Below the pieces are notes generated by a model. That model saw only the letters and a list, made by a program, of their open reading frames with translations. It was not told the DNA's origin and did no database searches. From Acidilobaceae archaeon (GTDB lineage: Archaea > Thermoproteota > Thermoprotei_A > Sulfolobales > Acidilobaceae): a stretch of DNA of 64,000 nucleotides. Shown piece by piece: positions 48,551-49,557 of the stretch (positions are counted from its first letter, which is position 1; each line of letters starts with the position of its first letter). Position numbers and translations under genes: made by a program. The stretch covers positions 186,001-250,000 of the forward strand of contig JALVZQ010000007.1 of the NCBI GenBank assembly GCA_027037535.1, given 5' to 3'.

Positions 48551-49173
48551 GTGAATACAAAATAATAACAGGCTACATACTAGAACAACTCTACTTCTGT
48601 GAATACAAGGCATATACAGAGTACAGAAAAGGATGGCAAAACAATATCAAGCCAAGCAAAGGAAGAATAATATCAAGACTGCTAGTCGGACTAAAAGAAA
48701 AGGATAACAAACTAGAATTTGCTAGAATAACTTTTAGGGGAGAGATTAACGGGATTCCTGCAGCTGTAACACCTGATCTCACATTACTCAATAATGGCAA
48801 ACCTATCGGATACATAAGAATAAAACAAAGAAAAAACCTGAAAATATACGACTCCGATTATGCTGGGCTTCTATTAGCAGGCTATCTAGACGATGAAGAA
48901 GAGAAAAGAGACCACGAGAAAAAGCTAATCGTAGTTACATACAATGAGACAAGCGCATTAATAGAAGCATTGAAAAAGCTACTAGAAACTGGTATATATC
49001 CGGCTAAAGGAGAGAAATGGGCGATAGGAATACGAGTATACGATAGATACATTGCGGAGAGATTCCTATTAAAAGCAATAAACACCTTAACACGGGACAC
49101 CCCACCAGTGCCCCGTGTGTCTCTACGATGTAATTATTGTTCGTTGAGAGAAGAATGCCCTGTTCAATTGTAA
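48551..49173 (+). pseudogene. Cas4-like nuclease without canonical start; likely frameshifted
   Basis: The frame ending at 49173 is open back to a TAG at 48544 but has no ATG, GTG or TTG before 48970. From TGY at about 48574 the product has the layout of Cas4/PD-(D/E)xK nucleases: GYILEQLYFCEYKAY (first Fe-S Cys), the motif-II Asp in TPDLTLL, and a C-terminal CNYCSLREEC cluster. The (D/E)xK acid is replaced (YIRIKQRK), so nuclease activity is doubtful. A GTG at 48551 would reach this frame only if one A were added to the AAAA run at 48559-48562. Alternatively, GGTGA (48550-48554) could serve an ATA start at 48562. No CRISPR repeats are near. Confidence 0.65.
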
Positions 49174-49206
49174 ACCCTTAATCCCCACAATAATAATACT
49201 AGTTAT

Positions 49207-49301
49207 GGGCGGCTGGGGAATGGAGTGGCCCGATCGCTGCTGAACAAGCCTTTCAGGCTACTCTTATGATGACCGAACCCGAGTCTCGACCCCAGCCGCC
49301 C
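49207..49301. ncRNA. Structured RNA candidate with perfect 12-bp closing helix
   Basis: GGGCGGCTGGGG (49207-49218) is the exact complement of CCCCAGCCGCCC (49290-49301). The 71 bases between contain a hairpin AGCCT/AGGCT (49247-49259), an exact CTGA (49240-49243) and an exact ATGATGA (49266-49272), which are box D- and box C-like. The region is far richer in G and C than its surroundings and lies between two convergent genes. TTAATC-type sequences flank both sides, so neither strand is excluded; the box motifs favour plus. It is not a tRNA, 5S or known SRP pattern that I can recognise. Confidence 0.65.
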
Positions 49302-49314
49302 TCGTTATCGTGGA

Positions 49315-49557
49315 TTAAGATGATCGATTGTTCTTCTCTTGAAGTTCTCTTACCAGCCTTATAGCAAGGAAGAATACTATTCCTGCTTCTACAATCGTGA
49401 AGACAGGGTCATTGTTAAGATAAGCGTATACTGCAAGGATGGTTGCACCACTCATGTTAAAAGCATAGAGCCATTTCCAGTCTTTTACTATAAAAGATAC
49501 GAAGACCAAGATTATTCCCAGTAGTCCTAGTAGCTGGTTCCCGTCTATGTAATCCAT
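49315..49557 (-). CDS. Small membrane protein with three hydrophobic segments
   Basis: This 80-residue protein has three hydrophobic helices (about 8-25, 28-46 and 53-70) and a charged end (RELQEKNNRSS). The pattern, including an Asn in the second helix and Glu before the third (VEAGIVFFLAIRL), resembles small CBU_0592-like membrane proteins of unknown function. It converges with the Cas4-like gene across the structured RNA element. Confidence 0.6.
   Translation of the reverse strand: MDYIDGNQLLGLLGIILVFVSFIVKDWKWLYAFNMSGATILAVYAYLNNDPVFTIVEAGIVFFLAIRLVRELQEKNNRSS

Follow-up and report, generated by a model that had tools for sequence, protein, structure and literature searches.

A GC-rich element between two convergent genes

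At this locus a Cas4-like open reading frame on the + strand ends at 49173 and an 80-aa open reading frame on the − strand ends at 49315. Between these convergent genes lies an element whose outer arms, GGGCGGCTGGGG and CCCCAGCCGCCC, are exact reverse complements, forming the perfect 12-bp GC helix (P1) that a sequence-only reading of this DNA had described. Throughout the window (the whole 64-kb stretch of DNA that was analysed) no perfect 12-mer inverted repeat besides P1 has its arms no more than 100 nt apart; in first-order Markov copies of the window the chance count of such repeats was about 1.05, and none was GC-rich. The GC content of the element, 63%, exceeds the 44% of the window and is matched by no other 95-nt segment scanned; its GC-richness had likewise been noted correctly. 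The + strand folds at −52.5 kcal/mol, compared with −31.5 ± 3.4 kcal/mol for shuffled sequences (z = −6.1), and the fold of the − strand is weaker (z = −4.6).

Promoter-type TTAATC sequences had been proposed on both sides. The upstream hexamer, a candidate promoter, starts 29 nt before the helix, which is the distance of a TATA box, and it recurs at near-identical spacing upstream of the copy in a related genome (G003), where the intervening sequence has diverged; the one on the other strand, about 17 nt away, is poorly placed. Read 5' to 3', the element runs GGGCGGCTGGGG AATG GAG T GGCCCGATCGCTG CTGA, a 22-nt loop, then ATGATGA C CGAACCCGAG T CTC GA CCCCAGCCGCCC, and thus contains the exact CTGA and ATGATGA already pointed out (Table 1). 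It is a predicted small non-coding RNA gene on the + strand, at about 49207-49301. A small putative membrane protein gene (~80-100 aa; 49315-49557 on the − strand of the window) adjoins the RNA in several genomes, and at two loci (L003 and L004) its reading frame, on the strand opposite to the RNA gene, extends into that gene or right across it.

Table 1. Features of the RNA element and its upstream region, in window coordinates
Feature	Position	Strand	Remarks
TATA-like hexamer TTAATC	49178..49183	+	putative promoter, from the sequence and the G003 copy
Whole RNA element	49207..49301	+	single covariance-model match in its own genome
P1 5' arm GGGCGGCTGGGG	49207..49218	+	covarying helix
Internal loop AATG, degenerate box C remnant	49219..49222	+	(N)AUG; ATG invariant in 14/14 aligned sequences
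P2 5' arm GAG	49223..49225	+	covaries with 49285-49287
Guide B GGCCCGATCGCTG	49227..49239	+	immediately precedes box D'; GGCYYGANCGCTR almost unchanged across 14 genomes
Box D' CTGA	49240..49243	+	CTGA in 13/14 aligned sequences, CCGA in 1/14
Variable D'-C' loop	49244..49265	+	length and sequence vary, about 3 to 24 nt between genomes
Hairpin AGCC/GGCT in D'-C' loop	49247-49250 / 49256-49259	+	species-specific, not conserved
Box C' ATGATGA	49266..49272	+	UGANGA in 14/14 aligned sequences, mostly RUGAUGA
Guide A CGAACCCGAG	49274..49283	+	invariant in 14 genomes
P2 3' arm CTC	49285..49287	+	covaries with 49223-49225; overlaps degenerate box D TCTCGA
Internal loop, 3' side GA	49288..49289	+	last base A in nearly all sequences
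P1 3' arm CCCCAGCCGCCC	49290..49301	+	covarying helix

Homologues and covariation of the two helices

The genomes compared include those of Aeropyrum sp., Thermodiscus sp. and MAGs named 'Acidilobaceae archaeon' and 'Desulfurococcales archaeon'; G017 is probably Aeropyrum pernix, G023 Acidilobus saccharovorans, G025 Ignisphaera aggregans, G038 an Ignicoccus and G060 a Thermosphaera. When 40 related genomes were searched at the DNA level, G003 (86%) and G004 gave clear copies, and G021 and G013 gave weaker matches that proved to be homologues; a gapped-pattern search found matches in 13 of 48 genomes of Acidilobaceae. The covariance-model search that had been suggested was carried out with a model built from 14 sequences, all from Acidilobaceae. 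It gave scores above 70 bits in 15 genomes of this family, with one copy per genome, and weaker matches in further Acidilobaceae and in other families; the window element, itself in the training set, scored 77 bits (E 1e-17).

Rfam yielded no match, either at the gathering threshold or at E ≤ 10, so that the known family once envisaged as a full explanation of the element did not emerge; a tRNA scan of the window with ARAGORN gave no match, and no description of the RNA was found in the literature searched. Because no Rfam family covers this RNA, Rfam-based annotation would miss the copies in Aeropyrum and its relatives.

The sequence of P1 differs in almost every genome, yet its arms pair (GGGCGGCUGGGG/CCCCAGCCGCCC, GGAGGCCC/GGGCCUCU, GGGGGCGG/CCGCCCCC, AAGGGCCC/GGGCCCUU and others), over a length of 6-15 bp. 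Using uncut sequences, the inner P1 pairs were formed at 96.9% within a sequence and at 51.4% when arms were exchanged between species (0/20000 shuffles). On the alignment the 8 inner P1 pairs are 97.3% paired, with two-sided changes at every pair. The 3-bp P2 helix is GAG/CUC, CCU/AGG, CCC/GGG or CCA/UGG depending on the genome, and its observed pairing was reached by 1 of 20000 arm shuffles. For P1 and P2 together, two-sided changes occur at all 11 pairs tested, 96.1% of cells are paired (55.0% in shuffles), and the covariation score of 0.977, against 0.238 ± 0.042 for shuffled alignments, was reached by none of 500 shuffles; this alignment count was made after removing 1-2 loop bases in a few sequences for arm register. 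Sliding the partners by one column lowered the paired cells from 96% to 53-59%. Between the helices lies an internal loop with (N)AUG on its 5' side and 1-3 bases, nearly always ending in A, on its 3' side.

In contrast to P1 and P2, the boxes D' and C' and the two guides (B, GGCYYGANCGCTR; A, CGAACCCGAG) hardly change. The structure is established by covariation, and established with it are the strand, the limits of the gene to within a few bases and the conservation of guides and D'/C'. Compensatory changes in the 12-bp helix and in an interior hairpin had been proposed as a check: the helix has them, while the hairpin is present in the window sequence but belongs to the variable D'-C' loop and is not shared by the other genomes. 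A UCGCU/AGCGA helix between the guides was also considered and rejected, because its variable positions fail to compensate.

The covariation and the conserved internal blocks refute the idea that the locus holds a known RNA, tRNA-like or otherwise, a mobile element, a terminator or an inverted repeat that arose by chance. The GC helix and its position between convergent genes speak for this group, but the ARAGORN and Rfam searches were negative and each genome has one copy, which leaves this group of explanations scarcely credible.

Probable descent from a two-guide box C/D sRNA

Throughout the aligned Acidilobaceae sequences an internal D' (CUGA, 13/14) is followed by C' (UGANGA, 14/14), with conserved guide stretches before D' and after C', as is characteristic of C/D sRNAs. 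The RNA shares with archaeal two-guide C/D sRNAs (C-D'-C'-D) the canonical D' and C' separated by a short loop, guides that immediately precede D' and follow C', and a small intergenic gene. It differs in that its terminal boxes are degenerate, no kink-turn can be drawn there, and the molecule is closed by a covarying helix of 6-15 bp together with the 3-bp inner helix. The hallmarks of a terminal kink-turn (RUGAUGA/CUGA, tandem sheared G-A pairs and a 3-nt bulge) were not found in Acidilobaceae: the outer boxes are reduced to (N)AUG and ..A, no bulge interrupts the pairs of P1 before the loop, only a few of the aligned sequences offer both G-A partners, and the box D beside guide A is degenerate in 14/14. 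The observation that the ends lack good box C or D partners was thus accurate, with the covarying helix standing in their place.

Outside the family, relatives carry the same guides between recognisable boxes. The Ignisphaera relative reads GTGATGT-TAGGTCCGCTT-CTGA-TATA-TGATGA-TAGAACCCGAGT-CTGA and that of a Pyrodictiaceae MAG GTGATGT-TAAGGCCCGCTA-CTGA-..-GCGATGA-..GGGAACCCGAGA-CTGA, and the Ignicoccus relative has the same guides in the same order; the Ignicoccus and Ignisphaera loci were recovered by the model trained on Acidilobaceae only. Outer C/D boxes are canonical or nearly so in these three and in Desulfurococcaceae relatives, and the GAACCCG of guide A is common to the C/D sRNAs of Ignisphaera, Ignicoccus and Desulfurococcaceae. 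Intermediates exist as well: in Acidilobus and another genus a GC helix directly flanks GAUGA/GAGGA (box C) and AUGA (box D). Two points are established, the existence of relatives whose outer boxes are canonical or nearly so and the fact that the terminal kink-turn has been lost; the shared boxes and guides, short as the shared stretches are, point to common descent with canonical C/D sRNAs.

In the Desulfurococcaceae relatives the guide halves are swapped, the A half preceding the B half; kinship with these RNAs is suggested by short shared stretches. The order in the Desulfurococcaceae loci (L028-L045) is opposite to that in L046-L050 and L294, a difference of the kind that circular permutation of the RNA or an exchange of its halves would produce.

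We conclude that the RNA probably derives from a two-guide archaeal box C/D sRNA whose terminal kink-turn decayed and which is now closed by a GC helix (probability about 0.78). Since relatives share the guides together with outer boxes, and intermediates are found, the order 'D then C', which had been taken as a sign that this is not an ordinary C/D guide RNA, is how D' and C' normally follow each other inside a two-guide sRNA, although the outer boxes are indeed degenerate; by the same token, the missing partners at the ends represent a terminal C/D motif that decayed while the helix grew. The element is a variant of the archaeal C/D sRNA without an Rfam family. Of the two suggestions made from the sequence, 'a new class of small RNA' was too strong, and 'a C/D relative with unusual topology' describes it well: D' and C' are retained and the outer boxes have given way to a helix.

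Archaeal C/D RNPs are considered to require two motif pairs, the terminal kink-turn as well as the inner k-loop. The relatives form a natural, conserved series of stepwise decay of the terminal motif with a helix taking over, from canonical outer boxes (Ignisphaera) through GAUGA/AUGA set in a GC helix (Acidilobus) to (N)AUG/..A (Aeropyrum and the window genome). They offer a natural experiment on the purpose of the terminal kink-turn, on the function of a half-RNP in vivo and on how guide RNAs gain new roles. A comparable case is that of eukaryotic C/D snoRNAs with poorly conserved C'/D' (PMC8413462), where one motif pair is likewise degenerate; here the situation is the opposite way round, with the inner pair intact and the outer one lost.

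The same relatives bear on whether the RNA could be an H/ACA or H/ACA-like pseudouridylation guide, with a lower stem, a pocket and an apical k-turn. The RNA does have a helix, an open pocket and, at the apex, a motif of the k-turn type. This assignment is nevertheless very improbable: no conserved ACA lies 3' of P1' in the copies and relatives compared, no upper stem is conserved (a potential UCGCU/AGCGA helix is interrupted at positions that vary freely), and the relatives outside Acidilobaceae are C/D sRNAs.

A proposed mode of action

In archaeal C/D sRNAs the internal D'/C' motif forms a k-loop that is bound by L7Ae. The layout is, 5' to 3', P1 - (N)AUG - P2 - guide B - D' - variable loop - C' - guide A - P2' - ..A - P1'. 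The long GC helix with its small internal loop closes the molecule and holds the two guides open opposite each other; P1 would protect the ends and supply the rigidity given by the terminal kink-turn in ordinary members. In the most likely mechanism L7Ae would bind the retained D'/C' k-loop, Nop5 and fibrillarin would be recruited there, and guide B would position, for 2'-O-methylation, the target nucleotide that faces the fifth base before D'. We give slightly better than even odds to the RNA still acting as a methylation guide through its D'/C' half, with protein binding, methylation and targets all predicted.

The closing stem might also serve in processing. P1, the internal loop and P2 would then resemble the processing stems of archaeal rRNA, and cleavage at the internal loop followed by ligation would release a circular core without P1. 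A long GC stem that has at its base the conserved (N)AUG/..A loop, next to a 3-bp helix, is consistent with this, and circular C/D sRNAs are common in archaea, their usual termini lacking a canonical bulge-helix-bulge (PMC7994747). However, the loop places 3-5 nt directly across from 1-3 nt; it does not consist of two 3-nt bulges 4 bp apart and so is not a canonical bulge-helix-bulge, and we regard such a role as improbable.

Potential targets of the two guides

In most tRNAs, C50-C56 of the T-arm are complementary to the GAACCCG of guide A, and C48 adds one more pair. When the fit was averaged over all tRNAs, no guide among 300 shuffled ones did as well, in each of three genomes. On this complementarity guide A probably pairs with tRNA T-arms at these positions. 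Methylation at such a target is doubtful because the adjoining box D is degenerate. The complement does not extend to full length in the tRNAs of the window genome, the full 10-nt complement occurs nowhere else in that assembly (in which searches detected no rRNA genes), and guide A is not conserved in Acidilobus. We therefore treat a tRNA role of guide A as a lead.

Guide B had no match to rRNA, tRNA or SRP RNA that exceeded shuffled guides or was consistent between genomes. Against rRNA, 52-93 of 150 shuffled guides matched as well, and the candidate rRNA sites do not change in step with guide B. With both guides, the LSU and SSU rRNAs of Aeropyrum-like, Ignicoccus-like and Desulfurococcaceae relatives contained no site consistent between families, and neither guide had a full-length perfect target in the searches run.

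Several candidates were tried and rejected. The best guide B sites, AG[C/U]GGUCGGGG in SSU rRNA and CAGCG-UCGGG in LSU rRNA (with one bulged guide base), were attractive because the guide varies only between C and U where a G lies opposite; shuffled guides equalled both, and changes in the guide are not accompanied by matching changes in the LSU site. The tRNA D-loop as a guide B target gave no conserved site in nine genomes and none in the tRNA sets. A search of the whole Thermosphaera-like genome for a combined target of A and B returned no convincing site, the double perfect match being the RNA gene itself, and the SRP RNA of this genome was rejected as well.

The targets bear on an alternative reading, in which the RNA is no longer a methylation guide. 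One L7Ae on the k-loop would make a stable RNP that acts as a chaperone, decoy or regulator, its two exposed stretches pairing with other RNAs, guide A with tRNA T-arms and guide B with some further RNA. It would account for the invariance of guide A beside a box D that is degenerate in 14/14 Acidilobaceae, for its fit to the T-arms of many tRNAs and for the lack of a full-length perfect target for either guide. On the other hand, the box D' beside guide B has been kept, as methylation through the D'/C' half would need, and orphan guides are common in archaeal C/D sRNAs in any case (PMC7994747); we therefore consider this reading unlikely. Equally unlikely in its fuller form is a C/D lineage that has given up both the terminal kink-turn and symmetric guiding, a one-L7Ae RNP closed by a GC helix whose exposed stretches would pair with tRNA T-arms and with a further RNA, serving some function besides methylation.

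The distribution of targets recalls the tRNA-targeting C/D sRNAs of archaea, in which one guide usually serves a tRNA and the other has no target (PMC7994747). Here too one guide fits a sequence common to many tRNAs and the other has no known target. The difference is that the tRNA-complementary guide adjoins a degenerate box D and not a good one.

Genes for 16S and 23S rRNA were not found in the assembly of the window genome with Rfam models or conserved patterns, and rRNA targets were therefore examined in relatives only. The assembly is rated 99.94% complete; its rRNA genes may be missing or intron-rich. Several related genomes carry insertions, probably introns, in their 16S and 23S genes (SSU loci L066 and L069), and such insertions cause model searches to miss or split these genes. 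Only 43 tRNAs were found in the assembly. At one locus (L108, G000:C8:130050-130230) ARAGORN reports an intron-containing tRNA-Gly(gcc) whose D-loop, GAGCGGTCGAAGG, looks like that of tRNA-Cys, and other intron-bearing tRNAs of this genome also seem to be misnamed.
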